Source of the DNA: Nitrospira sp.
GTDB taxonomy: Bacteria > Nitrospirota > Nitrospiria > Nitrospirales > Nitrospiraceae
Direction of reading: 5' to 3'
NCBI GenBank assembly: GCA_030653545.1
Contig: JAURZE010000036.1
Location: 1 to 49,763 of the forward strand
Length of the DNA: 49,763 nt
Below the pieces are notes generated by a model. That model had not been told where the DNA came from. It saw only the letters and a list, made by a program, of their open reading frames with translations, and did no database searches. Shown in pieces: positions 25,673 through 46,696 of this stretch; the stretch's first letter is position 1, and each line of letters opens with the position of its first letter. The position numbers and the translations under genes are program-made.

Positions 25673-26668
25673 ATGAGACGGGCACAGAGAGGGGCAGCTC
25701 TGATTGCGACAGGAGTCTTCATGGCATTGGCCATCATGGCCATAAACCAGGTTCGGGCCGAAGAAACTAGCCCGCCGGTTCAGGCTGAAACCGATGTCCA
25801 ATCGCGCGGGCTGACATTACCGAAACCGACGCTGCCGCCACCCCCTGCTACGCAACCGCTGAATATCCGGACCACCGGCGAGGGAGCAGGAAAAGTCGTC
25901 AGCATGCCTTCGGCCTACAACTGCCCTCCCGCCTGTTCACTCAGCTATCCGCAAGGTGTACCGGCGGTCTTGACCGCTGTTCCCGCACCGGGTTCGACTT
26001 TCGCTGGATGGGGCGGCGATTGCCGTGGCACAACGCCTTGCACATTAAGAATGGATCGGGGCTTCACAGTGGAGGCAAAATTCAACAAGATCCAAGCCTC
26101 TGCTGCCCCGATTCCCTCAACAGTCCCTGTGGTCGAATCCTTCAAGTTCACCCGCCGTCCGCCGTGTGACACGCGGCAACTGCAAACCTACCAAGCGGCT
26201 AAACCTTGCGTCCGCACCACACCCACGTCCAGCACTTCTGAGCCATCCGCCTTTCATGAACTCCAAATCAAAGGGAAAAATCTTCTTGGAGCAACAGTCG
26301 GCATTGCTGCCGGCCCACCCGATATCCCCGTGAGACCGGGACGCATCCCCGGCGTGGGCTCACAGATCGTTGATTGTCCGGCTGGCAGCTGCATTGAGGT
26401 CTATCTGGAAACCTTCCAAGCCACACAACGTGGACAGAGAATTCTTGCCGTGCGTAACCCACAGGGACAAAGCACCACATTTCAGATTGAAGTGATCGAT
26501 GGTATCGTGATCGCCTTACCGGCCGCAGGCCCGCGCACCGGACCCGCAGCGCCAGCCCAGCTTCCGAAGTGTGCCAATACCCCCTATATAGGGGCAAATC
26601 CTAACACGTCATCTCCCCCAAGCGGGTCGATTGTAACCGGGCCACGCGGCAGCTGTATTGTTCCTTAA
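25673..26668 (+). CDS. Exported InlB-repeat-like protein with N-terminal RG motif
   Basis: A 331-residue protein; the start has GAAGGAGG upstream. A signal peptide of about 29 residues is followed by VQSRGL at 42-47, an example of the recurrent RG motif, and then a Pro-rich spacer (PKPTLPPPPATQP). Residues ~60-140 form an InlB/Bacteroides-type beta-repeat with paired Cys (NCPPACSLSYPQGV, STFAGWGGDCRGTTPCTLRM). The rest has further Cys pairs and a beta-rich region (IVDCPAGSCIEVYLE). The first 140 residues are strongly paralogous to the gene at 42857, while the C-termini are unrelated. Function is unknown; surface exposure is inferred. Confidence 0.82.
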   Translation: MRRAQRGAALIATGVFMALAIMAINQVRAEETSPPVQAETDVQSRGLTLPKPTLPPPPATQPLNIRTTGEGAGKVVSMPSAYNCPPACSLSYPQGVPAVLTAVPAPGSTFAGWGGDCRGTTPCTLRMDRGFTVEAKFNKIQASAAPIPSTVPVVESFKFTRRPPCDTRQLQTYQAAKPCVRTTPTSSTSEPSAFHELQIKGKNLLGATVGIAAGPPDIPVRPGRIPGVGSQIVDCPAGSCIEVYLETFQATQRGQRILAVRNPQGQSTTFQIEVIDGIVIALPAAGPRTGPAAPAQLPKCANTPYIGANPNTSSPPSGSIVTGPRGSCIVP

Positions 26669-26729
26669 AAAAAAGAGGTCTACCCGGGCCTATGACATCT
26701 CGTCCATTTTTGTAGGACAGAAACTCCCA

Positions 26730-26858
26730 GGGACCATTCCGATTTTGGCGGATACTCTTGCGTACGGCGTGCGCGGAAAGAAATGCACCATGCCGGCAGC
26801 GACAGAGGCGAAGGTGGCCAACTCATGGACCGATGCATTACAGACGACCGTGAAGTAA
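26730..26858 (+). pseudogene. 3'-terminal fragment of a FecR-like gene
   Basis: The frame GTIPILADTLAYGVRGKKC plus about 20 further residues to the stop at 26858 matches the tail of the FecR protein at 24967 (GTCPIRTDTISYGVRGKKC). Similarity begins abruptly and only the 3' end is present. The fragment sits 60 bases after the InlB-like gene, so it appears to be a duplication scar, not a gene. Confidence 0.88.
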
Positions 26859-26913
26859 TTTCTTGGGACCTACGAAGGCGTGGTCACGACTCACTGTCAA
26901 CGAGGAGGGTGCC

Positions 26914-27861
26914 ATGGTGAAGTGGAAGGTCTTGCTCGCGTTGTTCCTGGCGGTAGGGATCGCCGGATGCGCGGCGCAACATTTCGACCATTCCGCCGAG
27001 GCCGAATCGTCGTCAACGACGATCCCGTCGACCATGATCATGATGGAACAACCGGTGCACTTTGCCACAATTGATGGCGGGGCGGTCGTTGTCGAGCCGG
27101 ATGAGTATCGAGTCGAGCAGACGACGGAATCGCAACTTCGGCTGGTTCCCCAAAAGGGTGACCGGCCGTTCCTCCTTGCCGCAGCCCTGACGACACATGA
27201 CATCGAGGTATCAAAACCATTTCCTCTCCTGCTAGCCCTCAACGAAGATGCCCGCAATCTGGTGTTGCTGCTTCCTGATGGCACGGCGCTCGATGCCGCC
27301 GGCTCCCTGAGCGGTATTCAGTCACGCGACCTCGTCCGGCCACGCCGGCACTATCACCTCGCCTACCAACTCGATCAGACAACCGGTCAGGTGCAATTCG
27401 GCGACGGTGTCGCTGGACAGCGGCCCCCGGCAAGCCCCTCGCAAGCGATGTCCCGTTCTCGCGTCGGCGCCGGGGCACTGAGCACCGTCGGCACCGTTCA
27501 ACGAGAATCCGAGCTTGAGATGATCAACCTCCAATCACTCCTCTCACAGCGCCAACAGATTGTGCAGCTCACCACGAATATTACCGCCGCGCAGAACGAA
27601 CCATTCCATCTTGAATACAACACCGACCGTCCCGGTGGAGATTTCGGACATCGGACCACGGTCAGCCCGGAAGCCTGTCGAGTGATCTGTTCGGCTGATA
27701 ATACCTGTCAGGCCTTCACCTTTGTGAAACCGCCAGCCGGCACCTCGGCAGGACAATGCTATCTCAAGCGAGCGGTGCCGGCTCAGACGGGAAATCCCTG
27801 CTGCATTTCTGCCAAACGAAAAAGCGTACAGGAGGAGCTGGTCGGCAATATCGGAAAGTAG
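26914..27861 (+). CDS. Lipoprotein with LPDGT domain and C-terminal PAN/Apple domain
   Basis: A 315-residue lipoprotein (lipobox GIAGC, Cys19); the start is set by GAGGAGGG before the ATG at 26914. Residues ~45-140 form a domain (QPVHFATIDGGAVVVEPDEY, then LVLLLPDGTALDAAGSLSG) shared with the protein at 45131 and ending IQSRDL, a weak form of the RG motif. Residues ~235-310 form a PAN/Apple domain: EYNTDRPGGDFG, CRVICSADNTCQAFTFVKP, GQCYLKRAVP and CCISAKR, with six Cys in family spacing. PAN domains bind proteins or carbohydrates. Disulfides here would need oxidative folding, plausibly by the DsbA at 32499. Confidence 0.85.
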   Translation: MVKWKVLLALFLAVGIAGCAAQHFDHSAEAESSSTTIPSTMIMMEQPVHFATIDGGAVVVEPDEYRVEQTTESQLRLVPQKGDRPFLLAAALTTHDIEVSKPFPLLLALNEDARNLVLLLPDGTALDAAGSLSGIQSRDLVRPRRHYHLAYQLDQTTGQVQFGDGVAGQRPPASPSQAMSRSRVGAGALSTVGTVQRESELEMINLQSLLSQRQQIVQLTTNITAAQNEPFHLEYNTDRPGGDFGHRTTVSPEACRVICSADNTCQAFTFVKPPAGTSAGQCYLKRAVPAQTGNPCCISAKRKSVQEELVGNIGK

Positions 27862-28322: not shown

Positions 28323-29807
28323 ATGAGATTCACACGGTCTTGTCGGGGAGGATATCTGTTTTTTGTCTGTGCCCTGTCGTTCTGTCTTGTGTTGATGCTT
28401 TCGAATACGAGGGCCGGTGCCCAAACCGGATTTGGCTCGATCGAAATCATCGTCTCCGACACGAATAACGTTCCCCTGCCCGGAGCGAAACTCTGCCTGC
28501 AGATGTCAAACCAGGTGATGGAGAGGCAAGCCGACCAGGACGGGCGCTACGTGACCTCTCTCCCTGCGGGCCAAACCACGGTCTATGCGAAGAAAGATGG
28601 ATACGAGAACCGGCAAGAGACTGTCGCCATGGCCAATGGGCAGCAGCTGGTGCGGCAACTCCGGCTGCCCCCAGGTCAAACTCAGCCGTTCCCGATTGAT
28701 TGCGGCACAACGACGGCCACGACAACCACTCCGGCCGAGGATCCCTGCGATACAATCGCCTCGCTCCTGCCGGCTATCGGAACGCGCGTCACCAATCGGG
28801 AAGTCGCCGTCACGCTGAATTTCAAGAATTCAACGAACGCCTATCGGATTACGGAATTCTCCCCGCAAGAAGTCCTTGCCGGCTCAAATCCGTCAGGCTG
28901 GCTCGATCCCGGAGAGGCTTTCACGAAGAAGAACGTGAAGTGGACGCCGGTTATTAATCCGGCTTCAACCTCGGCCACCATCAACTTCACTTTGACCGAA
29001 CCGGGATACGGAAACCATACCATTTATGTCCAAACCCGGCGGTACAGCAATGGGTGCGTGGCTCGTCGAACCCAACTGGTGACGGTAGTCCTGGCGCCGT
29101 CCAACTTCCAGACTCACACGCTCAAAGGACCGGCTCTTGAGCAATTTGTCACGGAAGCCAAAGCACGGGGGTACGAATTCCGAACGCAGATGAATGTGTT
29201 CCAACGCGCCGATCGGTGCCGACCAGGGTTTTACAGCCTGTGGCCGGAGAATTTTAATAATCCGAGAGCTCCCTTGGGGGGCGACAAGAACAGACTTGAC
29301 CAGGAGGTCACGGCTAAATTTGAAGTCTTTGGGGGACCTCTGCTTCTGAGACCCTTCTGGACGATTGAGCAAAGCAAAGCCGAACACCCGAACTTTCCCA
29401 ATTACGTTCCACCCGGTCCGCTCGATCCCAATCGGAACAATACGGTCATGGTGTATGAGAAGTTCGGCCAGAGCGGCTGTCCGCACGGCTGCCAGCAATC
29501 GCCGACGAGAGAATTTTCCTGGGTGAGAAAAATCTACGGTTATGTTGCTCTGTCAGGAACGAGAGCGCAGGGAGGCACCGAATTTTGTGATCGAGAGCGG
29601 GATGCCAGCCTCACTGAATTGGTTCTCAGAGGGCCGGCCGGAGACAACCCTGTCAGCGCCTTGGAGGATCTCCGCATACAACGCCCGTTCCAGCTCCGAC
29701 CCATTCCCCCACCCAAGCTCATCATCCCGCGTGGGATCGAGGGTGAACAAGGGACAGACGGCAGTCAGCCTATGGATCAGCCGGTAGAACCGGGAAAGAA
29801 CCCGTGA
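28323..29807 (+). CDS. Exported carboxypeptidase-regulatory-domain protein with C-terminal RG motif
   Basis: A 494-residue protein. The signal peptide ends about residue 36 (TRAGAQ). Residues ~38-120 are a carboxypeptidase regulatory-like beta-sandwich (GSIEIIVSDTNNVPLPGAKL, YVTSLPAGQTTVYAKKDGY). The remainder is not recognised; it contains a beta-rich CARDB-like stretch (~135-250) and a Cys/Pro-rich region (FGQSGCPHGCQQS). Near the C-terminus, IPRGIEGEQ (residues 468-476) is followed by an 18-residue Pro/Gln/Asp-rich tail, matching the RG-motif tails of the smaller array proteins. A GGGAGGAG ribosome binding site supports the start. Confidence 0.8.
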   Translation: MRFTRSCRGGYLFFVCALSFCLVLMLSNTRAGAQTGFGSIEIIVSDTNNVPLPGAKLCLQMSNQVMERQADQDGRYVTSLPAGQTTVYAKKDGYENRQETVAMANGQQLVRQLRLPPGQTQPFPIDCGTTTATTTTPAEDPCDTIASLLPAIGTRVTNREVAVTLNFKNSTNAYRITEFSPQEVLAGSNPSGWLDPGEAFTKKNVKWTPVINPASTSATINFTLTEPGYGNHTIYVQTRRYSNGCVARRTQLVTVVLAPSNFQTHTLKGPALEQFVTEAKARGYEFRTQMNVFQRADRCRPGFYSLWPENFNNPRAPLGGDKNRLDQEVTAKFEVFGGPLLLRPFWTIEQSKAEHPNFPNYVPPGPLDPNRNNTVMVYEKFGQSGCPHGCQQSPTREFSWVRKIYGYVALSGTRAQGGTEFCDRERDASLTELVLRGPAGDNPVSALEDLRIQRPFQLRPIPPPKLIIPRGIEGEQGTDGSQPMDQPVEPGKNP

Positions 29808-29862
29808 CAAGGGGAACCTGTCTGACTGGCTTCATAAAGTGCATCATGAATCGGGAGACCGT

Positions 29863-30329: not shown

Positions 30330-30503
30330 TACTCCGATCCTTTTCGCTTGCTCAATCGCATCCAGTAGAGAGCCTAAGATGTTCAAAGGTGTTCAGATGA
30401 AGATCGCACGCACGAGGGCAACGATCCATGTGATGGCGTCTCCCTTGATAACATTGAACGTCTTCTTGGCAAGAACCGACTCACATTTGGGAGCACGATC
30501 ACG

Positions 30504-32163: not shown

Positions 32164-32502
32164 ATGAAACTATCGACTATCCTCACCATCATCCTCACGG
32201 CACTCCTGACGGAAGGTCACGCGACCTTTACGTTGGCGGATTCCCCTCCTGCCGCTATCACCGACTCACAAGCCTCACAATCCTTGAATGCCGCATCGAA
32301 GAACAATGGCGCCGGCTGGTCGAGCACTCCCGCACCCGTTTCACAAGGCAAGGCTCCCGACTGCGAAGGCACGGTTCCATCCAATGGGGTCGTGACCGCT
32401 CTTCTCAGCCGGATCGTCCGCTCGCCCGGCAACACCCAGGGAAAACAATGTCCTATTCCACCGGTCCCGGACCATCCTTCATCACAGGAGCCCCACGAAT
32501 GA
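32164..32502 (+). CDS. Small exported protein, unrecognised
   Basis: A 112-residue protein with a signal peptide (TILTIILTALLTEGHATFTLA) and a Ser/Asn/Pro-rich mature part with two Cys (APDCEGTVPSNG, GKQCPIPPVP). No family was recognised and there is no RG motif. An AGGAAG ribosome binding site precedes the start. The stop overlaps the start of the dsbA-like gene by four bases (ATGA), so the two are translationally coupled and the peptide may assist or regulate that gene. Homology to known families would be needed to say more. Confidence 0.62.
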   Translation: MKLSTILTIILTALLTEGHATFTLADSPPAAITDSQASQSLNAASKNNGAGWSSTPAPVSQGKAPDCEGTVPSNGVVTALLSRIVRSPGNTQGKQCPIPPVPDHPSSQEPHE

Positions 32503-33296
32503 TCATGCAATCTCAGATGTTCCTCCATCGCCTACAGCACTTCTGCACTACAGTCGCTGTCATTGGCCTGGCAACGATGATCGGCTGCGCGGGACCAGCG
32601 ACACCCGCGCATCAGGCCAACCACCAGTCTCTCGACCCTATCATCGAGCGCTACATCCAAACGCATCCGGAGGTCATTGAACAATCGCTCCAGGCACTGG
32701 AGGCCAAACGAGAAGCGGAAGAGAAGACACGGCAGAAGGCCGCCCTCGCCACCAAGCAAAATGAGTTGCTCAACGATCCGGGCTCCCCTATCAGCGGTAA
32801 TCTCTCCGGCAATGTCACTCTGGTGGAGTTCTTCGATTATCGCTGTGGCTTCTGCAAGCGCGCCGCCAGCGCCGTGACCCAATTGCAGCAGGAAGATCCG
32901 CGCGTACGCGTTGTCTATAAAGATCTCCCCATTCTAGGCGAAGCCTCGGAACTCGCCGCAAAGGCGGCCCTCGCCTCGAGGAACCAAGGCAAGCACCAGG
33001 CCTTCCATGAAGCCTTACTGGCCTCCAAGGGCGACATAACCAGAGAATCGATCTTGGCCATCGCCACTGAAGTCGGGCTCGACGCTAAACAGCTGGATGC
33101 CGACATGGCCACACCCGATCTTCAAACAATCATCGACCGCAACCGGGCCCTGGCCAAAGACCTTGGCATCAGTGGAACGCCGGGCTTCATCGTCGGAACG
33201 GAACTCGTGCCGGGAGCGTTGGATCTGAAGGGATTGAAGGACTTAATCGCGCGGGCGGGAATGTCATCCTCAATAGGCGGGGTGAATGCTCGATGA
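32499..33296 (+). CDS. DsbA-family thiol:disulfide oxidoreductase lipoprotein
   Basis: A 265-residue protein with a lipoprotein signal (LATMIGC, Cys30). An alpha-helical stretch (~45-95, IIERYIQTHPEVIEQSLQAL) of the kind found in Com1/DsbA-like proteins follows. The thioredoxin fold has the active site CGFC (Cys116/Cys119) in VEFFDYRCGFCKRAA and the cis-Pro loop GISGTPGFIVG. It should oxidise or isomerise disulfides outside the cytoplasm. Many neighbours are Cys-rich exported proteins, so it is the likely folding catalyst of the array. Its 3' end is duplicated twice downstream (33828 and 35035), each copy just before another array gene. Confidence 0.93.
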   Translation: MIMQSQMFLHRLQHFCTTVAVIGLATMIGCAGPATPAHQANHQSLDPIIERYIQTHPEVIEQSLQALEAKREAEEKTRQKAALATKQNELLNDPGSPISGNLSGNVTLVEFFDYRCGFCKRAASAVTQLQQEDPRVRVVYKDLPILGEASELAAKAALASRNQGKHQAFHEALLASKGDITRESILAIATEVGLDAKQLDADMATPDLQTIIDRNRALAKDLGISGTPGFIVGTELVPGALDLKGLKDLIARAGMSSSIGGVNAR

Positions 33297-33351: not shown

Positions 33352-33810
33352 ATGACAAAGAAACAGACTACGGCTGCAATTGTTTTTGGATTGCTCTTTT
33401 GGGCATATGGCCTGCCGGCCGATGTCTCAGCCAAGCCCAAACGACCCAGCGTCTTCGGATGTACGACGGAAGATCTCAACACCGGCTTCGGCAGTTCATG
33501 CGTTAGCCAGGCTGAACAGGACATTATGAAGGGCAATTCTTATACGCACGTCATGATCTGCGAGGGAGGTCAACAGAAGTGTTGCACGGTCAGTAACGGT
33601 TCAGGACAAATTCTCAATTGCCGAAGGCCGGCCGGGTCCGCCGCCATGAGGCAGCCGCTTCAACAGTTGACTCCTATGACTCCGCAACCTGGATCTATAC
33701 AGAGCCGTGGCGTTGAAGGCGCGGAGGATGTCGGTGAAGAGACTCCGGTGCCGTCGTGGCTGACGGAATCGTGGCTGAAAGAGCATGAAGGTGCGAAACC
33801 GTCTAAGTGA
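33352..33810 (+). CDS. Small exported Cys-rich protein with C-terminal RG motif
   Basis: A 152-residue protein; the start at 33352 has TGGAGG upstream. The signal peptide ends about residue 26 (ADVSA), and the mature part opens KPKRPSVFGC, like the KPKQP opening of the next gene. A CC pair with a downstream Cys (QQKCCTVSNGSGQILNC) is shared with the genes at 34506 and 36698. SIQSRGVE at 115-122 is the RG motif, followed by a 30-residue acidic/Trp-containing tail. Function is unknown. It begins 55 bases after the intact dsbA-like gene. Confidence 0.78.
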   Translation: MTKKQTTAAIVFGLLFWAYGLPADVSAKPKRPSVFGCTTEDLNTGFGSSCVSQAEQDIMKGNSYTHVMICEGGQQKCCTVSNGSGQILNCRRPAGSAAMRQPLQQLTPMTPQPGSIQSRGVEGAEDVGEETPVPSWLTESWLKEHEGAKPSK

Positions 33811-33974: not shown

Positions 33975-34397
33975 ATGACAATCGGAACACTGGGGACAGG
34001 CCGGAAGCAGCACCTCATATTCTTTGCCCTGATCGTAGGGCTCGGTGCCGTCATGGCGTTTGCAACCGAAAGCTTCGCCAAGCCCAAGCAACCGATCTAC
34101 AACCAATGCGCCTGCCGATGCGTGGCTCCGGGAGATATCGTCGGCAGCATTTCGCACTTCAACAACAACGCCGGGGTGTCATGCGGAGTCTATCTTGGCA
34201 AGACCTGCAACTACACCAACTCGCAAACCGGAGGAGTGAGCACGGGAACATTAAAGAATTGTGGAGGCTACAAACCTGGTGGAACTCAGGCACTCCAGCA
34301 AACCGTTCCCCAAGTGAACGCGCCTATCATGCGGCGCGGCGTCGAGGACGAGCAGCCGGAGCCGTCGACAACTGCGCCGAAGGAGAAAGGACAGTGA
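33975..34397 (+). CDS. Small exported Cys-rich protein with NAPIMRRGVE tail
   Basis: A 140-residue protein with a signal peptide ending about residue 34 (ATESFA). Mature KPKQPIYNQCACRCVAPGD follows, with six Cys in all (also VSCGVYLGKTCNY and LKNCGG). The C-terminus carries NAPIMRRGVEDEQ (115-127) and a 13-residue Pro/Thr/Lys tail. The mature opening resembles that of the protein at 33352, suggesting shared ancestry by tandem duplication. A CGGAGAC ribosome binding site is present. Function is unknown. Confidence 0.78.
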   Translation: MTIGTLGTGRKQHLIFFALIVGLGAVMAFATESFAKPKQPIYNQCACRCVAPGDIVGSISHFNNNAGVSCGVYLGKTCNYTNSQTGGVSTGTLKNCGGYKPGGTQALQQTVPQVNAPIMRRGVEDEQPEPSTTAPKEKGQ

Positions 34398-34505: not shown

Positions 34506-34958
34506 ATGAGAATCATGCGCCGAACAGCACACGGTAAGGGCAACACCCTGTTCCTAGCCTTGACCGTCGGATTCACCACATTGCTTGTCACGTCCGGAAT
34601 CAGCCTGGCTGTACCAAAACAAGGGGCGACTTGCTCAGCCACAGGGCGAGAAAAAGGACTGAACGCCTGTGCCGACAGTCCAGGGCATACGATTCGGTGT
34701 TTACCAAGCGGAGATTACATGTGCTGCGTTCAGACCCAGACGGGCACGGAGTGTGAAGAAATCGAAAAAGATGATGCCAAGAGTGCCATAGGTAGAGCGG
34801 GACAAACTCAGAGAGGCCAGCTCCAGGTCGCGCCGACGAACCCTCCACCAAGAACTTCCCCATTCCAAAGAGGGGGAACGAACGCGCCTATCATGCGGCG
34901 CGGCGTCGAGGGCGAGCAGCCGGCTGAGCCGGCGGTGCCTACCGAAAAAGGAAAGTAG
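34506..34958 (+). CDS. Small exported Cys-rich protein with NAPIMRRGVE tail
   Basis: A 150-residue protein; AAAGGAGAG precedes the ATG. The signal peptide ends about residue 35 (SLA), and the mature part begins VPKQGATCSATGREKG. The CC motif GDYMCCVQTQTGTEC parallels GDWMCC in the gene at 36698. A Gln/Pro/Thr-rich linker leads to NAPIMRRGVEGEQ (126-138) and the tail PAEPAVPTEKGK. The tag and tail are nearly identical, also at DNA level, to those of the gene at 33975. Function is unknown. Confidence 0.78.
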   Translation: MRIMRRTAHGKGNTLFLALTVGFTTLLVTSGISLAVPKQGATCSATGREKGLNACADSPGHTIRCLPSGDYMCCVQTQTGTECEEIEKDDAKSAIGRAGQTQRGQLQVAPTNPPPRTSPFQRGGTNAPIMRRGVEGEQPAEPAVPTEKGK

Positions 34959-37800: not shown

Positions 37801-39021
37801 ATGAATATCCGCATACTCACACCGAGACTCATATATGGCCTGTGCCTCCTCATCGCCGGGTGCTCGACCGCGGAGCGACCTCCTGCCGTGACCCAAGCGG
37901 TCACGGAATCGCCGATGGAAGTCCCCGTGATTCCAGACGAGCCGGGACCCGACCAACTCGCTCCATCCGAGGGAATCGGAACAGAGGTGCAAGAACGTGG
38001 AGTGTCTTCGAAGCTGTTGGGCCAGAACCTGGCTATGCTCAATATCGCTCCCATCCAAGCCATAGCAGCGCTGCCGGGCCAGTTCGCCTTCCGCACCACA
38101 AAAGGTTACTACGTTACCGGACTTGACGGGGGCGGACGCACAGCTGATCCCGTCCTCGTCACCGCCTCGGTGTCCGCGGGGGCCTATGAGAAATTCCGCA
38201 TCGCACTGACGTACCCCAACACCCCCCACGACAAGAGCTTTCAAACCAGCCGCGGCAATTATCTCACCTCCATGAACGGAGGGGGACTCACCGGAGGCGC
38301 CTTTCATACCGATGCAACGCAAGCCAAAGATTGGGAACGGTTTCGTCTGCTCGACCTCAGCGTCAACAATTTTGCACCCAGCTACTATGCCTTTCAAACC
38401 TTCAAAGGATCCTACGTCACAGCCGTCGGGGCCGGAGGTAAATACGCGGATGCCTTCCACACCGACGCCAAGCAAATCCAGGATTGGGAGAAGTTTCGAG
38501 TCGTCAAGTGCGGCGATATCGGCTCAGGACTGGAGTACGGCATCCTGGCGGCGAATGGATCGTTTCTCAAAGCAGAGCTTGCAGCGGGAAGAGCACAAGG
38601 AGACCTTTGGCTCGATTCCTATGCAGGGCCACAGACCCGATTCAAGTTCATCAGGCAAGGCGACGGAACCTATGCACTGCAGACCTCAAACGGCGCGAAC
38701 TTCGTTACCGCCCTCGGCGGAGGGGGACAAGTTCAGAAATATCAAAAATGCGACGTAGGGTTATCTGGCGCCTGCCTCGAGGGCTACTCGACGATCTTCC
38801 ATACCGATGCGAAGCAGGTACAAGCCTGGGAGAAATTCAGAGTGCTCGATCAGGGCAACTGCACCTATGCCCTTCAAACGACGAGCGGCTTCGTCATGGG
38901 CATCTACAAAGACTCAGGGGGACGCACTCTGCTGACGACACGGAGAGACGGCGCCTCGACGGCCAATGAGAAGTTCCAATTAGTCGTGTATGGCTTGGCG
39001 TCTCCGCTGAGCTTGCAGTGA
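37801..39021 (+). CDS. Beta-trefoil (fascin/actin-crosslinker-like) lipoprotein with RG motif
   Basis: A 406-residue lipoprotein (lipobox LLIAGC, Cys21). VQERGV at 63-68 lies between the lipid anchor and the folded part. The body (~90-400) has at least five repeats of the pattern YALQTxxGxYVTAxxGGG, and three copies of FHTDAxQxxxWEKFRV, which is the fascin/FRG1-like beta-trefoil signature. Two trefoils fit the length. Such folds bind sugars or proteins. If the Arg-Gly bond is cut, the trefoil part would be released from the membrane anchor. An AGAAGGAAG ribosome binding site supports the start. Confidence 0.82.
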   Translation: MNIRILTPRLIYGLCLLIAGCSTAERPPAVTQAVTESPMEVPVIPDEPGPDQLAPSEGIGTEVQERGVSSKLLGQNLAMLNIAPIQAIAALPGQFAFRTTKGYYVTGLDGGGRTADPVLVTASVSAGAYEKFRIALTYPNTPHDKSFQTSRGNYLTSMNGGGLTGGAFHTDATQAKDWERFRLLDLSVNNFAPSYYAFQTFKGSYVTAVGAGGKYADAFHTDAKQIQDWEKFRVVKCGDIGSGLEYGILAANGSFLKAELAAGRAQGDLWLDSYAGPQTRFKFIRQGDGTYALQTSNGANFVTALGGGGQVQKYQKCDVGLSGACLEGYSTIFHTDAKQVQAWEKFRVLDQGNCTYALQTTSGFVMGIYKDSGGRTLLTTRRDGASTANEKFQLVVYGLASPLSLQ

Positions 39022-39664: not shown

Positions 39665-39787
39665 ATGAATAGTCATGACATTCGCCTGTGGTCGGAACAC
39701 CTCAGGGTCTTCGGTGGATCCGGTCCGCCGGTATCCTTGGCTTCTCCAACGAAAACTTACATCCGTCTGAGAAGGAGGCAACCATGA
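39665..39787 (+). CDS. Possible 40-codon leader ORF overlapping the haem-protein start
   Basis: An ATG behind CCCGGAGGG opens a 40-residue frame (MNSHDIRLWSEHLRVFGG...). Its stop overlaps the ATG of the next gene by four bases (ATGA). It has no signal peptide and no recognised family. It could be a leader peptide coupling translation, or chance. The same ATGA arrangement occurs before the dsbA-like gene, downstream of the other copy of the upstream repeat. Confidence 0.35.
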   Translation: MNSHDIRLWSEHLRVFGGSGPPVSLASPTKTYIRLRRRQP

Positions 39788-40254
39788 GAAGGACGATCCT
39801 ATTGGCCCTCGCAATACTGGCGATTTTCACGGCTGTCAAGGCGGCAGCCGATACCTACATCTACGAGGTTGGTTTTTTTGGAAACATCAAACAAGTGGGA
39901 CGAGTCTCAGGTGGCTCTGATTCAGCCATCCTGTGCGGAGGAGGCCAGTGCATCCCAATCGTCAATTGCAATGCTTGCCATACCCAGCCAGCTGACCAGA
40001 AACGTTACGCCAAGGACAAGGAAAATAGTCATCAAAAGATCCACTTCCCTAAAGCCGCGTTGCAGATCAGGGAAGGCCAACAGGCCACCATGGGATCAGC
40101 GTTAGTGACGCGAATAAAAGGTATCCTGGTCATACAAGAGCCGAAGGGAGCTCGATTCCCATTACCTGCTGACGCATACCTGGTGAAGGGGAAAGACGGC
40201 AAGCCAGCCTTTATCACGTATGTGGGAAGCAGGCCCCCGCAACCGATTAAATGA
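39784..40254 (+). CDS. Small exported protein with one CxxCH haem motif
   Basis: A 156-residue protein; the start has AGAAGGAGGCAA upstream. The signal peptide ends about residue 21 (VKAAA). A single c-type haem site lies in IVNCNACHTQPADQKR. The rest is beta-rich (AALQIREGQQATMGSALVTRI, ILVIQEPKGARFP). One Met (TMGSAL) could be the axial ligand, but this is not certain. No known cytochrome family was recognised. It adjoins the dihaem-like gene at 40329, and both may carry electrons in the periplasm. Confidence 0.75.
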   Translation: MRRTILLALAILAIFTAVKAAADTYIYEVGFFGNIKQVGRVSGGSDSAILCGGGQCIPIVNCNACHTQPADQKRYAKDKENSHQKIHFPKAALQIREGQQATMGSALVTRIKGILVIQEPKGARFPLPADAYLVKGKDGKPAFITYVGSRPPQPIK

Positions 40255-40328
40255 AGATGACTATCCTTTGGGTGCACTGGAAGCAGTCATGGGATTGCCG
40301 GAGAGCGATCTTCACTGAGGAGGAAACG

Positions 40329-41645
40329 ATGAAATCATGCTTGGCATGGCTGTTGGCATTAGGCGGACTCTTCACTCTGATCACTGGAACGTCCACGGCC
40401 CTCGCGCAGAATCCCCTTCCACCGCCGACACTCCTTCGCCCCCTCACCAACGGTATTCCCAACGTGCCGGGCAGCGACGCGATATCAACTGGCGATGGAG
40501 CACGGGTGGCGTTTACCCATGTCGCCGGCGCCACCTTCTACCATATTTGCTTTCGAGCGCCAGGGAACATCTGCCAGGATCAATTCAACCCGCCTCTGCA
40601 GTCGATGTTTGCCGTCACGGCAAGGATCAATCCAAGCGCACCCCAACCGCTCCCTCCAGCCACGCCTGGAGAGACCATCGAGTTCTTTCTTCCGATTCCC
40701 AACGGATTCCAGGGCGGAAGAATTCAATGGGAAGTGAAATCTTGCACCGGTCCGAACCCGACGCAATGTGGGCAAGCTTCTCCTTTCCAGCAAGTCATTG
40801 TGCTCTTGCCCTCAGCGACACTTTCTCCCAATGTTCCTTCCATCATCCCGAACAACCGACGCGTCACCTTCCAATGGACCAACCATGAGCAGGCGGACGC
40901 AGGACCGCAACTGATCGTCCTTCCGGATGGCATCCCTACGAACCAGATATCCGTCTTCACAATGAGCAACCCCACCGTCGCGAATCCTCCAGGCCTCAGC
41001 ATGTCATTGAATCCTGGAGTGAGCAATCAGGCGGTGGACCTGCCTCTTGGGCTCGGCCCGGCGATCAAATGGACGGTCGCCAACTGCCGCAATTTCCCCA
41101 ACAAGGGCCGCCGCTGCAGCCAGCTTCTGACCTCATGGAGATCCATGCGAGTGCCTAATTTCTTTTCGACGGTCATCGCACCGACATTTCGGCATCCCCG
41201 CTGCGTCAACTGCCACGCGGTCGCCACCGAGAATTTCCAAAACGATCCGACGAACAATCCGAACGGGGGATTGCCCAGCAATCACCCGCAAGTCAACGCC
41301 AACATGGACAACAGTGGCGGATGCGCCAACTGCCACACCAACAACTTGTTACCTGCTCAAGGCACCATCAATCCCGGCTGGCACGCGGCTCCTGCCGCCA
41401 TGGATTTCCGCAACCGAACCAATGCTGAACTCTGTTCGATGGCGCAGCAAAATGCCGGCGGAGCGTCGGGATTCCAGCATCTGACCCAAGACAAGCTGAT
41501 CTTGTGGGCCATCAACCCAAATCAACAGGGCAATGTGCAGCTCCCAGGAGGGCCAGGGCGCCCGGCCGCACCACCGGCCAATATCGCTGCCTGGCAAAAC
41601 GCAGTCTATGTCTGGTGGTTCAAGACACAGAAAGCTTGCGATTAA
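40329..41645 (+). CDS. Exported protein with two CxxCH haem motifs (isoquinoline oxidoreductase-subunit-like)
   Basis: A 438-residue protein; GAGGAGGAAACG precedes the ATG. A signal peptide (~1-27, ending TALA) is followed by about 250 residues of fibronectin/Ig-like beta structure (GARVAFTHVAGATFYHICFR, RRVTFQWTNHEQADAG). The C-terminal ~150 residues hold FRHPRCVNCHAVATENF and CANCHTNN, two haem attachment sites, plus the WHAAPAAMDFRNRTNAELC pattern. This pattern is seen in proteins annotated as isoquinoline 1-oxidoreductase subunits. An exported dihaem cytochrome-like role is likely; the substrate is unknown. Confidence 0.82.
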   Translation: MKSCLAWLLALGGLFTLITGTSTALAQNPLPPPTLLRPLTNGIPNVPGSDAISTGDGARVAFTHVAGATFYHICFRAPGNICQDQFNPPLQSMFAVTARINPSAPQPLPPATPGETIEFFLPIPNGFQGGRIQWEVKSCTGPNPTQCGQASPFQQVIVLLPSATLSPNVPSIIPNNRRVTFQWTNHEQADAGPQLIVLPDGIPTNQISVFTMSNPTVANPPGLSMSLNPGVSNQAVDLPLGLGPAIKWTVANCRNFPNKGRRCSQLLTSWRSMRVPNFFSTVIAPTFRHPRCVNCHAVATENFQNDPTNNPNGGLPSNHPQVNANMDNSGGCANCHTNNLLPAQGTINPGWHAAPAAMDFRNRTNAELCSMAQQNAGGASGFQHLTQDKLILWAINPNQQGNVQLPGGPGRPAAPPANIAAWQNAVYVWWFKTQKACD

Positions 41646-41759: not shown

Positions 41760-42812
41760 ATGAGCAAGTCCAAGGATCATCCCTCCAAGAATGTCGAGTC
41801 GGGATTGTCCCGCCGGGATCTCTTCCGCACCGCTGGCCTCGCGGCTGGCGGTGCCGTACTCCTCGGTCTGCCTAAGTTCGTAGGCGGATGGGCCGGCGAT
41901 GCGGAGGCCGCCGTGGACACCCGTGTCTACGCTGGAACGACCAGCCTGGCCTTGGAACTCGATGGTCAGTCCATCCCTCTGTTTTCCGTTGAAGGAGGTC
42001 ATGCCGTGGCCGACGTCATTTCGGAGCCGGTCGGCCCGGAAGGGATCGCGGTCAAGCGACCGGGGGCGGTTCGATACGAGGATCTATTGGTCACCCTGCC
42101 GATGGGCACCGGCTCGAAAGCGCTCGGCGACTGGCTCACCAACTCCTTGAGCAAACCGGGTCCATCGGCCAAGAACGGGGCCATCATTTACGGTGGACCG
42201 GACGGCAAAGAGATAAAGCGACTGGGGTTTACCGGCACACTTCTTTCGGAAGTGGTGGTCCCCCAAGCCTCGGCGGCAGACACAACCCAGGCCATGCTGT
42301 TTCTGCGCCTCACTCCGCAAAGCACCCAACTTCTCGGACCATCAGGAGGCGCTCTCAAGGCCCCGCTCGGCGCGAAACAAGCGAATGTCCTCTCGAGCAA
42401 TTTCCGGCTGAACGTGCAAGGACTGGAACAGGCCTGTGGACGCATTGCGAAAGTGCACCCGCTGATTACCCGTCGATTCACCGGCAGCAATTCAGTCGGA
42501 GACTTTCGCCAGCCGAAGAATCCGCTGGGCCCTTGGAACTGCGCCAACGTCAGCGTCATTCTCCCGGAAGCCGATGCCGGTCCTTTCTATCAGTGGTTCG
42601 ATGACCTGGTCGTGAAAGCAAAGCCTGGCGGCGAGCGCAAAGGTCTCCTGGAATGGATGGACCAGTCAATGAAGGTCGCAGCCTCCGTGCAGCTCGACGG
42701 GCTTGGCATTGTTCGCTATGCCCCGGAACCGGTGATCCTCGGATCATCGCAAAAGGCCGGCGGCATGGTGCAGGTCGATCTGTATTGCGAGACGATGAAG
42801 ATCAACCTGTAA
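41760..42812 (+). CDS. Tat-exported tail-tube-like (gp19-type) protein
   Basis: A 350-residue protein with a twin-arginine signal (SRRDLFRTAGLAAGGAVLLG). The rest resembles two tandem domains of the phage T4 gp19/tail-tube type. Domain 1 (~60-210) has RPGAVRYEDLLVTLPM, LGDWLTNSL, KNGAIIYGGPDGKEIKRLGF and a TLLSEVVVPQASAADTTQAM block. Domain 2 (~215-350) has SSNFRLNVQGLEQACGRIAK, VSVILPEADAGPFYQWFDDL, KGLLEWMDQSM and a terminal VDLYCETMKINL. These match uncharacterised bacterial gp19-like tail proteins I know. Export of such a fold is unexpected. A paralogue lies at 46922 and a 3' fragment of one at 46738. The start has GAAGGAG upstream. Confidence 0.72.
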   Translation: MSKSKDHPSKNVESGLSRRDLFRTAGLAAGGAVLLGLPKFVGGWAGDAEAAVDTRVYAGTTSLALELDGQSIPLFSVEGGHAVADVISEPVGPEGIAVKRPGAVRYEDLLVTLPMGTGSKALGDWLTNSLSKPGPSAKNGAIIYGGPDGKEIKRLGFTGTLLSEVVVPQASAADTTQAMLFLRLTPQSTQLLGPSGGALKAPLGAKQANVLSSNFRLNVQGLEQACGRIAKVHPLITRRFTGSNSVGDFRQPKNPLGPWNCANVSVILPEADAGPFYQWFDDLVVKAKPGGERKGLLEWMDQSMKVAASVQLDGLGIVRYAPEPVILGSSQKAGGMVQVDLYCETMKINL

Positions 42813-42856
42813 TCCCATCTACAATGATCGCTCTTCACGGAGCGATGGAGTGCGCT

Positions 42857-43717
42857 ATGACTACGACACGACAAATTCTCCTGCTCGCGTCAATGAGCCT
42901 GCTCAGCCTCGCCAGTTTGAGCGATTCCGGACAAGCCGCGACGGAAGATTCTATTGAATCACGCGGACTGAATCTCCCGCGCGTTTCAGTTCCCGCCCCA
43001 CCGCCTCCGCCAATCATGCAACCCCTTGCAGTACGCATAGTAGGAGATGGGCGCGGCACAGTGACCCTGCCGCCGGCCAAAGCCTGCCCTCCTGCCTGCT
43101 CAGCAACCTATCCGCAGGGAATTCCAGTCGTCCTTGCAGCCGTCCCGGCGCCTGGCTCCACATTCGCCGGATGGGGTGGCGCCTGCCGAGGGACGGCTCC
43201 TTGTACGTTGAGAATGGACCGGCCCTATACCGTCGAAGCCAAATTCAATCCCGCGCAAGCCCCGCCATCAACCACTCAATCGCCTGTGGGGACACAAATG
43301 ACACCAGCCGCACCGGCATCCATTCCAGTTCCCTATCCAAATATCGGAATCACCCCGCTCAGCCCTGAACTTGAGCCCATCAGTGTCATGATGGCCGACG
43401 GAAAACCGGATGAGCAGATTCTCGACGCCTGGAAGACCTTTGTCACAAGACGCATTCAGAACAAACAGCCGCTCGACGTCCGGAGTATGGTTGAGCAGAT
43501 CCGGCTACGAGCAGATGTGCATAATCAGACACAACGACGCACACTGACAGAAAACTTCCGCAAACAACAGGCTGCGCTTGGGCAGGCCAGTCAGGACATG
43601 TCCGTTGCCCTCCAAGATGCCATGACGAGAATCAATCAACTCATGCAAGCGCGCGCCAACATCACGGCGAAAATGTCCGCTGCCGCAGACGCCATCATTC
43701 GGAATATGAGAGGGTGA
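42857..43717 (+). CDS. Exported InlB-repeat-like protein with RG and PVPYPN motifs
   Basis: A 286-residue protein. The start at 42857 has GGAG six bases upstream; an ATG at 42845 is an alternative. The signal peptide ends about residue 28 (GQAA) and IESRGL lies at 33-38. A Pro-rich spacer and the InlB-like Cys repeat (ACPPACSATYPQGI, STFAGWGGACRGTAPCTLRM) are paralogous to the gene at 25673. After that the proteins differ: here SIPVPYPNIG (~156-165) matches the PAAR-like DUF4150 signature. The last 110 residues are strongly helical (IRLRADVHNQTQRRTLTENF, then RINQLMQARANITAKMSAAA), probably a coiled coil. Confidence 0.8.
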   Translation: MTTTRQILLLASMSLLSLASLSDSGQAATEDSIESRGLNLPRVSVPAPPPPPIMQPLAVRIVGDGRGTVTLPPAKACPPACSATYPQGIPVVLAAVPAPGSTFAGWGGACRGTAPCTLRMDRPYTVEAKFNPAQAPPSTTQSPVGTQMTPAAPASIPVPYPNIGITPLSPELEPISVMMADGKPDEQILDAWKTFVTRRIQNKQPLDVRSMVEQIRLRADVHNQTQRRTLTENFRKQQAALGQASQDMSVALQDAMTRINQLMQARANITAKMSAAADAIIRNMRG

Positions 43718-43825
43718 GGTGATTCGTATGGTCATCAGCGTCCATCGATATATTCGGAACAAGCCTTCCTCGGCGATGGTATTCTCAAATCGTCATACCC
43801 AACCCAACACGAAAGCGAGACCCCT

Positions 43826-44323
43826 ATGAGACCCATCCTCTTGGCGTCAGCATTGACATGGATCGTTGCAGTTCTACCGGCTGTTGCTGGTGCTGCGGAC
43901 GAGGTGACCGAGCGGGCGGTCCCGAACTCATCCATGATAGTTCAGCAGCCCGCGCAGCCTTCAGGGACGACCATCCCTCCCCTCACGGTGGACCAGCGGC
44001 TTGCCGCAATGCAGCAACAGATTCAAGCACTGCAGATGCAGGTGTCCGCATTGCAGGCGATTGTGAATATCACGCCAAGCGCCGTCACCATTCACAGCAA
44101 TGGTTCCCTCGTCATTCAGGCCGCCAAGGGCGTCTCCATCGGAGCCGGCCAAAATGTGGCCATACAAAGCAATGGAGGAGTGCTCGTCGAGGGGAAAGGC
44201 CCGCTTGATCTGAAAGCCCCGTTGATCACAATGAACGGCGGCACCAAACCACTTGCGACGGTCGGCAGCGCGGTCGGCAACGGGAAGGTGCTGACCGGAA
44301 GCGGGACAATTCTAGGGAACTAA
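43826..44323 (+). CDS. Exported VgrG/gp5-tip-like beta-helix protein with RG motif
   Basis: A 165-residue protein. The signal peptide ends about residue 24 (VAGAA), followed at once by VTERAV (27-32). Residues ~52-82 are a heptad-rich coiled coil (RLAAMQQQIQALQMQVSALQ). Residues ~83-165 repeat short strands (VTIHSNGSLVIQAAKGVSIG, GVLVEGKGPLDLKAPLITMN) and end GNGKVLTGSGTILGN. Alternating-residue strands of this sort form the triple beta-helix spikes of gp5/VgrG tips, and the ending resembles their VGD...GSxTVL tails. A trimer is likely. The signal peptide sets it apart from cytosolic spike proteins. Confidence 0.68.
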   Translation: MRPILLASALTWIVAVLPAVAGAADEVTERAVPNSSMIVQQPAQPSGTTIPPLTVDQRLAAMQQQIQALQMQVSALQAIVNITPSAVTIHSNGSLVIQAAKGVSIGAGQNVAIQSNGGVLVEGKGPLDLKAPLITMNGGTKPLATVGSAVGNGKVLTGSGTILGN

Positions 44324-44416
44324 CCGGGCTCTGCTTTAGAGCGAACGAGTAGTTCAGCGATCGAGCATGAGGACGGAAAGATTACCGACCATCACATTGT
44401 CTTGAAGGAGGACCCT

Positions 44417-45088
44417 ATGCGCCCATGGTTATCAGGCTTCTTAATAGGATTTATGTTCACCATGACATCGGCCGCGCTGGCTAACGACCCTGCTCCCGAG
44501 AGTACAGGTCAACCAGCCACTCAAACCGAGTCCGTCTCTGCTCTTCCCGACAATGAAGGTGTTGAATCAAGGGGAGTCCCGAAGATGCGCACGCTTCTAC
44601 CAGATGAAATCGCAGTGGCGAAGAGCGTGTTTCAGAACACCCTCAACTACAGCATGGTGAGGGTAACGAACACACTCGGCCTCGGCGGGAGGCCTTGGAC
44701 GACCAATAGCCCGCCGCTCTACATGCTGAATGTTGGCGGAGATTACCCTAACCTTGCCGCGGACGACGACCGGAGGCGTCTTTTGATCCACGAACTGACT
44801 CATGTCTGGCAAGCGCAACACCTCGTGCCGATCACCCTGAATTCCGCGGCACATCAAACATTGAGCGCCATTCAGAACGGAGGAGATGTCTCCGCCGCCT
44901 ATGCCTATACCGTCGGAAAATCCTGGGGGCAGTACAACATCGAACAGCAAGCCAGCATCGTGGCGCACTGGTTCATGCCGTCGAATAAGTGTTTCGTCAA
45001 CGGGGGCCCTTGTGGGGGCGGAATGAAGACCACGGATGCGCGGTACCCCTACATCCGGGACAACATCAGGCAGAATAAGGCGTTTTGA
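44417..45088 (+). CDS. Exported HELTH metallopeptidase-like protein (VgrG-associated type) with RG motif
   Basis: A 223-residue protein; AAGGAGGA precedes the ATG at 44417. The signal peptide ends about residue 22 (AALA). VESRGV occurs at 49-54. The domain starts LLPDEIAVAKSVFQNTLNY and contains the zinc-binding HELTH at 125-129 (LLIHELTHVWQAQHLV), then YNIEQQASIVAHWF. This arrangement matches the VgrG-related/DUF4157-like family found near type VI and eCIS genes. There the role is often unknown and some members may be inactive. Its place directly after the spike-like gene fits that association. Confidence 0.78.
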   Translation: MRPWLSGFLIGFMFTMTSAALANDPAPESTGQPATQTESVSALPDNEGVESRGVPKMRTLLPDEIAVAKSVFQNTLNYSMVRVTNTLGLGGRPWTTNSPPLYMLNVGGDYPNLAADDDRRRLLIHELTHVWQAQHLVPITLNSAAHQTLSAIQNGGDVSAAYAYTVGKSWGQYNIEQQASIVAHWFMPSNKCFVNGGPCGGGMKTTDARYPYIRDNIRQNKAF

Positions 45089-45130
45089 TTTTTTTACAAC
45101 CTGTTGCCTTCGGACACAGAAAGGTGCCTC

Positions 45131-46696
45131 ATGCGAACACGAACAACAGCGAGACTCGTATTCATCGTCATGGCCTTGGTGTCATCGTTGGCATCAATCG
45201 TCAGCCAGGCCTTGGCTGACACAACGCTGAAATTGGACCAACCGGCCCACTTCTCGACGGCAGAAGGCGCGGACGTCGTGCTCGACGCAGGGTCCTACGC
45301 GATTGAGGCAGCCGACACATCGATTCGAGTCCTGCCTGCTGATGATCGCGCTCGAACCGACGGATGGTTACTGCAGGCTTTTAAAACGCGGCACACAGAA
45401 TCGCTAGAACAATCTGTCGCAATGTCAGTCCTCGAAAACACGGACGACGTACATCTGCTCATCCTGCTTCCCGATGGAACAGGCTTGGAAGCCATCGGTT
45501 CGATCAGTGGTCTCCGGTCACGAGCCGCTGCTCCGGCTCAAACCCTGTCTCAAACTCAAGTTAGCAAGCACCTCACGGTGCAGCAGACTACATTGCTAAC
45601 TCCCCCTCAGATAACGGCCTATACCATCTCCCCCGCGGTTTTTCCCGTCTCGACAATGCTGCCATCTGTCTGGCCTGCCCAGCCGGTTCCCTACCTGAAC
45701 CTTATACTCAAGCTGACTTTTACGATGAATGGAGGGGCCGCGACTCCCTATAAGCAAATTCGAGTGCTCGGATTTGAGCCCCCGCTGATGGCAGCGGGGC
45801 AACAGGGCTATACGGGTTGCTTTTTCCAGACGAAGCAACATAAAAGCCCAGTGAACCCGTTCCAAGTCAATGCCTCTTATCCTCTGATCGATTCTCAAGG
45901 ACGCGCGGAACTGATGATCGCCGGATGGTTTGAGGGTCAAGGAACATCCCCGGGACATGGAAACTGCGCGGTGCGCGCCCGCGTTCAACTGGCTCAACAG
46001 AATGGGGTATTCGGCAATACGTTCGATGTCGTCTATCTCGGCGTACCTATTGCGGCACCTACCGTGTACACCATCTCCAACACTTGGTCATGGAAGAATC
46101 TGCTGGGCTTTGAAAATACCGGAGCTGTTGGTGTCTGCTCGGGAACTTCTATGGGTGTCAAGATGAACAATTTCGGGCCTCCCTCGACAGTTTCCTATCC
46201 GGTGGGTGTCGTCGAAAGCAACAACGACCTATCACTGAATGTTCGGAGCGGGCCGGCCGGCCCGGATTGCCAATTCCAATCAAAAGTGAGGCTCCTTCCG
46301 AACGGAACTCGCCTTCTCGGCTTGACCTGGAAAACGGCCAAGTCGGGGGTCCAGGAAAGCACGTGTCGAGTCTGCCCCAGCCGAGACGGCTGTACCTACG
46401 GAGGGCCCTCTCACATGGGAGAGCCGTTCAACCGGGGCGCCGCGATCATCTTGAACCCCGAATCGTGGCCGGGCGGAAGCAATGGCGTCGGCTATTCCAT
46501 CACAAGCCACAATCTGCCTATTCTTACACCCGACAACACCCTCGCCTATGACGGAACGTCAGGGGGATTGTTCACCGTTCTCCTCCCGATGTGGACCAGA
46601 TTACAATGCGGCAACACTGCCACGAACGACCATGGGGTACGGTTGATCCTTGATTCCATCCAATTGGTGGGCCCTCCCGGCTTGAATTTTCCTTAA
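45131..46696 (+). CDS. Exported protein with LPDGT domain and large beta-rich C-terminus
   Basis: A 521-residue protein; AAAGG lies seven bases before the ATG at 45131. The signal peptide ends about residue 29 (SQALA). Residues ~33-125 (QPAHFSTAEGADVVLDAGSY, HLLILLPDGTGLEAIGSISG) are paralogous to the lipoprotein at 26914. The domain ends GLRSRAA, a weak form of the RG motif. The remaining ~390 residues are beta-rich with scattered Cys pairs (TCRVCPSRDGC) and contain no recognised family. The shared N-domain with different C-domains suggests a modular anchor or sorting domain. Confidence 0.75.
   Translation: MRTRTTARLVFIVMALVSSLASIVSQALADTTLKLDQPAHFSTAEGADVVLDAGSYAIEAADTSIRVLPADDRARTDGWLLQAFKTRHTESLEQSVAMSVLENTDDVHLLILLPDGTGLEAIGSISGLRSRAAAPAQTLSQTQVSKHLTVQQTTLLTPPQITAYTISPAVFPVSTMLPSVWPAQPVPYLNLILKLTFTMNGGAATPYKQIRVLGFEPPLMAAGQQGYTGCFFQTKQHKSPVNPFQVNASYPLIDSQGRAELMIAGWFEGQGTSPGHGNCAVRARVQLAQQNGVFGNTFDVVYLGVPIAAPTVYTISNTWSWKNLLGFENTGAVGVCSGTSMGVKMNNFGPPSTVSYPVGVVESNNDLSLNVRSGPAGPDCQFQSKVRLLPNGTRLLGLTWKTAKSGVQESTCRVCPSRDGCTYGGPSHMGEPFNRGAAIILNPESWPGGSNGVGYSITSHNLPILTPDNTLAYDGTSGGLFTVLLPMWTRLQCGNTATNDHGVRLILDSIQLVGPPGLNFP

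Follow-up and report, generated by a model that had tools for sequence, protein, structure and literature searches.

Paired tags on the exported proteins of a Nitrospira locus, probably processing sites for an exported caspase

Short tags that recur on many unrelated exported proteins and are served by a dedicated peptidase are known from the PEP-CTERM/exosortase and GlyGly-CTERM/rhombosortase systems, where the tag is C-terminal and comprises a transmembrane helix and a basic end. Double-glycine leaders likewise present a conserved site on diverse small secreted proteins, which is cut by the Cys protease of C39 peptidase-transporters. We know of no tag common to many unrelated exported proteins among the metacaspases, and of no tag family of this kind for the gingipain RgpB. 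Caspase homologues are common in bacteria, and to our knowledge their natural substrates are seldom known. Nitrospirae have been reported as one of the groups in which they abound (PMC3501461, excerpt), and members of the C14 family other than caspases prefer Arg or Lys (PMC5756287, excerpt). The excerpted literature gives the cleavage consensus of MALT1 as hydrophobic-X-P/S-R|G/A (PMC6125328), with the R165K site mutant of HOIL1 being cut by MALT1 in trace only (PMC4659944), and it describes self-cleavage of AtMC4 in its linker and cleavage of the Propep1 precursor at Arg69 (PMC7206013), as well as RgpB as a clan CD enzyme with Arg at P1 that processes itself at Arg (PMC4357240). Here we describe a locus of Nitrospira sp. 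(assembly GCA_030653545.1, contig JAURZE010000036.1) in which a short Arg-Gly/Ala motif recurs on exported proteins encoded behind an exported WD40-caspase. The stretch analysed, hereafter the window, spans 49,763 nucleotides and is contig C36 of a 3.94-Mb genome in 39 contigs. The locus is like PEP-CTERM and GlyGly-CTERM in having a recurrent tag, but its tags stand at both ends of proteins and its tails are acidic; unlike the double-glycine/C39 arrangement, it has a signal peptide first, a proposed cut at R|G/A and a C-terminal counterpart.

The strict pattern [VI]x[SERP]R[GA][VIL] was scored on the 25 listed proteins of a one-strand gene run (20590-48545), 12 of which carry it at a total of 13 sites. 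Shuffled versions of these proteins, with the first 25 residues excluded, gave a mean of 0.41 carriers and a maximum of 3 in 2000 rounds. None of 13 hand-picked upstream genes has the strict motif, and no motif site is present in a small frame (32164-32502) that is off the 25-protein list. A six-frame count over the whole window with a near-identical pattern returned 22 matches, the nine besides the 13 sites lying in frames judged non-genic. Genome-wide searches with profiles of seven C-terminal (A1) and six N-terminal (A2) window segments gave best E values of 0.88 (A1) and 0.30 (A2) apart from their own seed sequences, which all profiles used here (A1-A4) recover by construction. Chance origin of the motif was rejected on the shuffles together with the background stretches and drifting flanks described below. 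A preliminary description of this DNA had reported a six-residue motif in at least 12 unrelated exported proteins, lying close to the signal peptide or the C-terminus. All 13 of its strong sites are present at the genes it named, and the placement holds, with N-terminal sites beginning at residue 27-63 and C-terminal sites finishing 16-31 residues ahead of the stop. The number of carriers stands as well, but "unrelated" is too strong, because the proteins at 25673 and 42857 have an InlB-like domain in common and some of the Cys-rich proteins may be distant kin. The six-residue motif is real, but two longer tags contain it as no more than their core. The weak form IQSRDL (gene at 26914) is tag-related, since its orthologues in the genomes G014 and G023 read IQSRGL, and by this comparison it reads as a degenerate copy of the tag.

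The tag near the signal peptide (N-tag) usually has the form G-[DE]-[VI]-Q-[ES]-R-[GA]-[VIL], and the tag ahead of an acidic C-terminal tail (C-tag) the form [IV]-x-[RSP]-R-G-[VI]-[ED]. Their anatomy was read from 57 N-tags and 43 C-tags collected with a loose pattern that fixes the Arg (P1); a further 47 matches to this pattern outside both end zones, which include sites in caspases, were excluded from the counts. Among the N-tags, P6 is G in 28, P5 is D or E in 40, P4 is V in 41 and I in 16, P3 is Q in 46, P2 is E in 44 and S in 13, and P1' is G in 33 and A in 22. Among the C-tags, P4 is I in 23 and V in 18, P3 is M in 20, P2 is R in 21, P in 12 and S in 7, P1' is G in 40, and P3' is E or D in 40. 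Preferred residues are often seen beyond the cores as well (G-[DE] before the N-tag; N-A-P before and G-E after the C-tag). Where the rest of the consensus is kept, the tag Arg position holds Arg in 94 cases and Lys in 0. The outer side of each tag is the acidic one: mean charge per residue is -0.141 in the pro-segments and -0.128 in the C-terminal tails, against +0.04 in the 40 residues on the inner side, and the net charge is negative in 55/57 pro-segments and 40/43 tails. The tails end 11-59 residues past the tag, and those that were printed contain no hydrophobic stretch; sorting of the PEP-CTERM kind was rejected, as the helix and basic end are lacking.

The tags stay fixed while the sequences around them drift. 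Between genomes, N-tags are 0.80-1.00 identical and their flanks 0.18-0.34, and C-tags are 0.62-0.88 identical and their flanks 0.21-0.56 (four families in each comparison), where flanks are the 25 residues on either side and the contrast is partly built in because the sets were picked by tag pattern. A tag-like site, in some cases with Asp at P2, is present in 75/77 homologues of eight tagged families in the loci. Seven tandem chains, from about four families (three chains in one, two in another), consist of a C-tag, an acidic linker of 17-47 residues and an N-tag; the first part of one chain is kin to separate proteins that end in a C-tag, and the second part of another is kin to proteins with an N-tag at their start. 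Leaders with two successive N-tags are also found (L099:5155 and L101:9016).

The tagged proteins, or cargo, are diverse. BLAST comparison of 130 tagged frames with the tags masked yielded 48 clusters, 23 of them with at least two members. The figure of 48 is an upper estimate, since the 130 still include a few frames that overlap others or run antisense. Recognizable cargo domains are the trypsin fold, DUF7910, an InlB-like repeat, CarboxypepD_reg, a weak DUF2345 and, in a more distant relative, a subtilase. Several cargo proteins are small and Cys-rich without a Pfam match, and some of these may be distant relatives of each other. In the G014 frame L033:12389-14443, a tagged leader of the 37801 family is fused to the barrel of a TonB-dependent receptor whose plug is truncated; this is probably a deletion chimera, and we do not count the leader swap as evidence.

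For enrichment statistics, proteins were counted as exported on a crude hydrophobicity-rule signal-peptide call with at most one later hydrophobic segment, using a gene caller that misses or truncates genes. The preliminary description had staked its reading on the motif being more frequent in exported proteins of related genomes than in shuffled sequences, and this is the case: in 20 stretches found by the N-tag, 71/177 exported proteins carry the strict motif against 3.14 expected (70/162 against 2.74 in 16 stretches chosen once their tag sets were known, and 1/15 in the remaining four). In individual loci, the exported carriers number 8/25 in the window (0.46 expected; the caller loses genes that are counted in the 12/25 tally), 5/20 in G014 (0.64 expected), 5/17 in G023 (0.24 expected) and 4/15 in G041 (0.22 expected). 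Background stretches of 400 kb each contain 1/118 in G000 (2.28 expected) and 2/94 in G124 (1.52 expected). The N-tag excess in the 20 stretches is partly built in, because the N-tag picked them; the C-tag played no part in the picking, and a C-tag followed by Glu or Asp in the last 75 residues is found in 25/177 of the same exported proteins against 0.02 expected, and in none of the 338 exported proteins of the controls (0/118 and 0/94 in the two backgrounds, 0/126 around other caspases). Since the loci are enriched and the 400-kb backgrounds are at or near expectation, the motif is a tag of these loci, not something that exported proteins carry in general.

Related genomes contain the tags in a patchy manner. 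Matches to A1 were found in 4/79 genomes of the genus (the window's own, G014, G023 and G015), that in G015 being taken for noise as its frame holds a stop; G041 was found via the protein at 41760, which is present in 2/76 genomes, and it has a tag locus of its own. An N-tag profile of 18 segments from four genomes (A3) matches 27/175 genomes of the family at E 0.02 or better, in 10/22 genera and in several cases with clustered matches. Inspection of 20 stretches around A3 matches revealed clear tag clusters in G089, G152, G129, G154, G127, G124, G112, G119, G102 and G126, smaller sets in G164, G093 and G158, and no tag set in G087, G166 and G039. A C-tag profile of 16 segments (A4) matches 11/395 genomes of the phylum at E 0.001 or better, including G084 (same family) and G395 (another family of the same order). 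Over the same 395 genomes, A3 matches 10 at E 0.005; G455, G180, G225 and G229 lie outside the family. A recognisable motif is present in two of these, G180 and G229, in frames that lack a signal peptide, and all four were taken for chance.

At the head of the locus stands the exported WD40-caspase (20674-23850; the start is uncertain, the frame being open from a GTG at 20590), which is the proposed processing protease. It consists of WD40 repeats, a middle region and a C-terminal C14 domain (about 22990-23847; PF00656, 67.2 bits against a cut-off of 21.4). The second and third genes of this conserved head encode a YVTN-type beta-propeller protein (23859-24917; TIGR02276) and a FecR-domain protein (24967-25590; PF04773), each present in 10/15 other motif loci; like all genes of the run, these three lie on the plus strand. 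The crude signal-peptide call is positive in 9/9 listed members of the caspase family. Orthologues, taken as matches to the last 706 residues at E 1e-100 or better, occur in 15/175 genomes of the family, and 14 of the 15 have an A3 match against 13/160 of the others (Fisher p 1.6e-12, a test that is inflated by gene linkage). In G084, the one remaining, both tags lie close to the caspase, so that 15/15 are tagged. Caspase and tagged genes share a contig within about 25 kb in 13/15, and they lie on different contigs in the drafts G152 and G093; the caspase is present as well in G395, which the C-tag had brought up. Relatives of the caspase are found in Nitrospira sp. CG24D (97%), WB-IL-20, S2bin.16, MAG_246, other Nitrospirales and Nitrospirota, and two Rokubacteria. 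The preliminary description had suggested looking for the motif in loci with a WD40-caspase. The link holds for this one caspase family, but no tag cluster was seen at 20 stretches around other caspases, mostly from the same genus (3/126 exported carriers against 2.68 expected), and the idea of the motif as a general companion of caspases was dropped on this count.

A C11-type caspase was considered as the sole partner and rejected, as the copy in G000 (L063) has no cluster beside it, just one neighbour with two PRG sites; it is present near tag loci in several other genomes. Proteins in which a YPR[GS][IV] site is conserved occur near the C11-type caspase (L102:5330-6967, L103:3791-5491, L105:2279-3988, L096:3949-5577 and L111:4361-6019), and the pair neighbours tag loci in several genomes. 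The one such protein that was scanned, from L102, contains DUF4384, and the stretch after the catalytic Cys of the C11-type caspase reads I[RL]TRS[VI].

The fold model of the C14 domain, of moderate confidence (mean pLDDT 68.8, pTM 0.72), has a metacaspase as best match (E 4e-9). Its fold neighbours are metacaspases, GSU0716 and MALT1; the highest-placed Asp-specific caspase comes 48th among the 50 matches listed. Sequence searches yield metacaspases and GSU0716 but not MALT1. An alignment of 14 sequences (A6) demonstrates that the catalytic His (in GHG) and Cys are kept, with His113, Cys171, Asp54, Asp56, Asp169, Arg187 and Ala188 invariant in 14/14. Four residues are described for the S1 pocket of TbMCA2, including Asp95 and Asp211 (PMC4357240, excerpt); read from sequence alignments and not from superposition, the counterparts of these two are Asp, while those of Cys92 and Ser156 are unconserved. 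The model is of low confidence at residues 115-147 and 173-188. The latter stretch follows the catalytic Cys, and low confidence there is what a flexible linker would give; its Arg-Ala (187-188) resembles the tag at its cut site, with Ala at P4; a self-cleavage site here is possible. Near the end of most sequences (23098-23802 in the window) lies a loop DxDxDGxxTxxE, which we take to be EF-hand-like and in which Asp240, Asp242, Asp244 and Glu251 are invariant (14/14); judged by its sequence, it suggests that the caspase may be under calcium control. Residues 376-799, in the middle of the protein, correspond to the C-terminal half of the TIGR03900 model (MXAN_5808 family serine peptidase; E 4e-66, below the model cut-off).

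Amongst described proteases, the metacaspases (AtMC4 of Arabidopsis, and metacaspase-1 of yeast and Candida) are thus nearest to the locus caspase by sequence and fold, but they are not exported bacterial enzymes. MALT1 shares the C14 fold and is among the nearest folds, and its Arg at P1, hydrophobic P4 and Gly or Ala at P1' recur in the tags, a match that was set by the search patterns, so that its weight lies in the excess over shuffles and in the count of 94 Arg to 0 Lys. MALT1 is a human intracellular signalling protease, whereas the enzyme here is a bacterial, exported one that carries WD40 repeats and is accompanied by a large repertoire of tagged proteins. RgpB resembles it as a clan CD enzyme with Arg at P1, and differs in belonging to family C25.

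The preliminary description had proposed that one system uses the motif as a tag for processing, sorting or docking. This reading is supported, with processing favoured among the three. A tag of one system fits because the motif is confined to this type of locus within the window's genome, recurs with one exported caspase and is fixed amid drifting flanks; the outer acidic segments and the tandem chains fit the removal of pro-segments, tails and linkers, and processing by the exported caspase is therefore favoured. We consider it probable that the motif represents paired processing tags cut at Arg|Gly/Ala by the caspase of the locus. Cargo would leave the cytoplasm by way of its signal peptide, and outside the inner membrane the metacaspase/paracaspase-like C14 enzyme at the head of the locus would cut after the tag Arg. 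Cleavage of the N-tag (...[DE]-[VI]-Q-[ES]-R | [GA]-[VIL]...) would remove an acidic, low-complexity pro-segment, cleavage of the C-tag (...[IV]-x-[RSP]-R | G-[VI]-[ED]...) would remove the acidic tail, and in a chain with both tags the acidic linker between them would be excised. We guess that the WD40, middle and EF-hand-like parts time the activity of the protease. From the mix of Cys-rich, lectin-like and protease cargo, our guess is that the freed proteins form a secreted arsenal or a surface coat.

Several observations weigh against processing by the caspase. Cleavage is unseen, and we infer the cut bond, the caspase as cutter and the role of the freed proteins. The P2 residue is mostly Glu in N-tags (44/57) and Arg in C-tags (21/43), unlike the Ser/Pro of MALT1, a preference that only a minority of the 57 N-tags and 43 C-tags shares, and in the linker of the caspase itself the fourth residue ahead of the cut is Ala, unlike in the tags. 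In the trypsin-fold cargo the tag makes no usual zymogen N-terminus, the VVGG lying further downstream, and two homologues of one Cys-rich cargo family are untagged. The association with the caspase, its test inflated by gene linkage as stated, has gaps of its own. Of the 13 caspase-less genomes with an A3 match, six were inspected: G039, G087 and G166 have no tag set, and G041, G119 and G164 carry tags on multiple proteins without a caspase orthologue (G119 and G164 are drafts with completeness of 89 and 72; in G041 an exported Sel1-type caspase directly precedes the tagged genes). In G126, a tagged gene at C1:172245 is some 200 kb away from the WD40-caspase, and the 40 kb fetched around this gene contain no caspase. 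Among 11 further caspase records, only four (G462, G463, G467 and G468) have an A3 match at E 0.02 or better, and the other seven, including Rokubacteria GWA2_70_23, have none at that threshold. The leaders of exported proteins are where the matches in G463 and G462 fall, and a further, weaker match in G463 (E 0.08) is in a subtilase leader. The coupling of caspase and tags is tight within the family, and further out either the coupling is looser or the tags have diverged.

The tags could alternatively serve uncut, bound by an envelope partner such as the WD40 or YVTN propeller that gathers the cargo or routes its export. WD40 propellers can hold an arginine motif, as in WDR5, propellers belong to the conserved head of the locus, and the tags extend past a minimal cleavage site (G-[DE]; N-A-P and G-E). 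This docking or sorting role is nevertheless fairly unlikely in our judgement, as it leaves unexplained both the acidity of the outer side (55/57 and 40/43) and the tandem chains of C-tag, linker and N-tag; moreover G041, a single case, keeps the tags with an exported caspase that is of Sel1 and not WD40 type, and no YVTN- or FecR-like gene was found in the locus fetched from it.

The cut could also be made by another protease, either the trypsin-fold enzyme of the locus or an unlinked envelope protease. The trypsin-fold enzyme is present in 8/15 other loci and would be exported along with the cargo, but it is itself cargo, and it was not found in the other 7/15, some of which are incomplete. 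Trypsins specific for Arg have Asp at position 189; the eight sequences of the locus S1 protease that were read have Ser (7) or Ala (1) there, a ninth being a fragment without the site, which disfavours it as the cutter. A plasmid search with this protease gave 29 records, all below 60% identity, the matches listed being distant proteases. No other protease common to the loci turned up among the genes scanned, which were not all of them, and we regard this explanation as quite improbable. That the tags have no function, and that leaders and tails have spread among neighbours by duplication and recombination, is highly improbable: some neighbours do have leader stretches in common, and the truncated receptor barrel of G014 carries a tagged leader, but the tags are 0.62-1.00 identical where flanks are 0.18-0.56, the tag-like site persists in 75/77 homologues, each end has a tag of a different kind, and masking the tags still leaves 48 clusters.

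Behind the head genes, the order of the locus in the window is as follows. An InlB-like repeat protein (25673-26668) has the N-tag VQSR|GL at 25796-25813, and after the LPDGT/PAN-domain protein with the degenerate IQSRDL (26914-27861) comes a CarboxypepD_reg protein (28323-29807) with the C-tag IIPR|GIE (core IIPRGI, 29721-29738). An untagged DsbA-like protein (32493-33296; PF01323) is a frequent partner, being present in 13/15 other motif loci. Next are three Cys-rich proteins, the first (33352-33810) with the C-tag IQSR|GVE (core 33697-33714), the other two (33975-34397 and 34506-34958) with IMRR|GVE (cores 34326-34343 and 34890-34907). The S1 trypsin-fold protease (35203-36624; PF00089, Ser at 189) bears both tags, VQER|AV at 35359-35376 and IMSR|GIE with its core at 36532-36549. 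Two more Cys-rich proteins with IMRR|GVE (36698-37144, core 37073-37090; 37272-37745, core 37653-37670) precede a DUF7910 (beta-trefoil-like) protein (37801-39021) with the N-tag VQER|GV at 37987-38004. Further N-tags are found in a second InlB-like repeat protein (42857-43717; IESR|GL at 42953-42970), in a protein with weak DUF2345/VgrG-like matches below cut-off (43826-44323; VTER|AV at 43904-43921) and in one with a zinc-site-like sequence HELTHVWQ (44417-45088; VESR|GV at 44561-44578). A further LPDGT-domain protein (45131-46696) has, on reading its sequence, the weak form LRSRAA.

Several other features were noted in and around the locus. A tRNA-Arg gene (20375-20451) lies directly upstream and is a possible island boundary. 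Two related proteins (41760-42812 and 46922-48052; 32% identical) with twin-arginine-type leaders and no Pfam match have relatives in G041 and G129, and may resemble phage tail-tube proteins. Two untagged frames without a Pfam match (39778-40254 and 40326-41645) contain CxxCH haem-binding-like sites. A transposase-like frame on the minus strand (48731-49591), which by eye we take to be IS3-type, lies near the contig end. Within the tag locus of G041, an untagged Hcp (type VI secretion tube; L043:10278-10838, PF05638, E 6e-19) has a signal peptide by the crude rule.

The titles and opening lines of abstracts listed in our library searches on Nitrospira, bacterial caspases, metacaspases, paracaspases and the tag sequence contain no account of such a tag system. 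We put at about even chances the broader proposal of an exported caspase maturation system in Nitrospirota, in which paracaspase-like cuts at both ends and excision of linkers would allow one regulated protease to switch on a whole arsenal. If this is true, a bacterial caspase fold would serve the maturation of proteins outside the cytoplasm, not cell death, and the repertoire it matures would be large, fast-changing and secreted. In this locus the substrates seem to be spelled out in the genome, as many exported proteins with the same site, and the specificity, activation and purpose of the enzyme are therefore directly testable. The tag also opens a way into the proteins that Nitrospira and its relatives secrete, a repertoire much of which has no Pfam match in the samples scanned.

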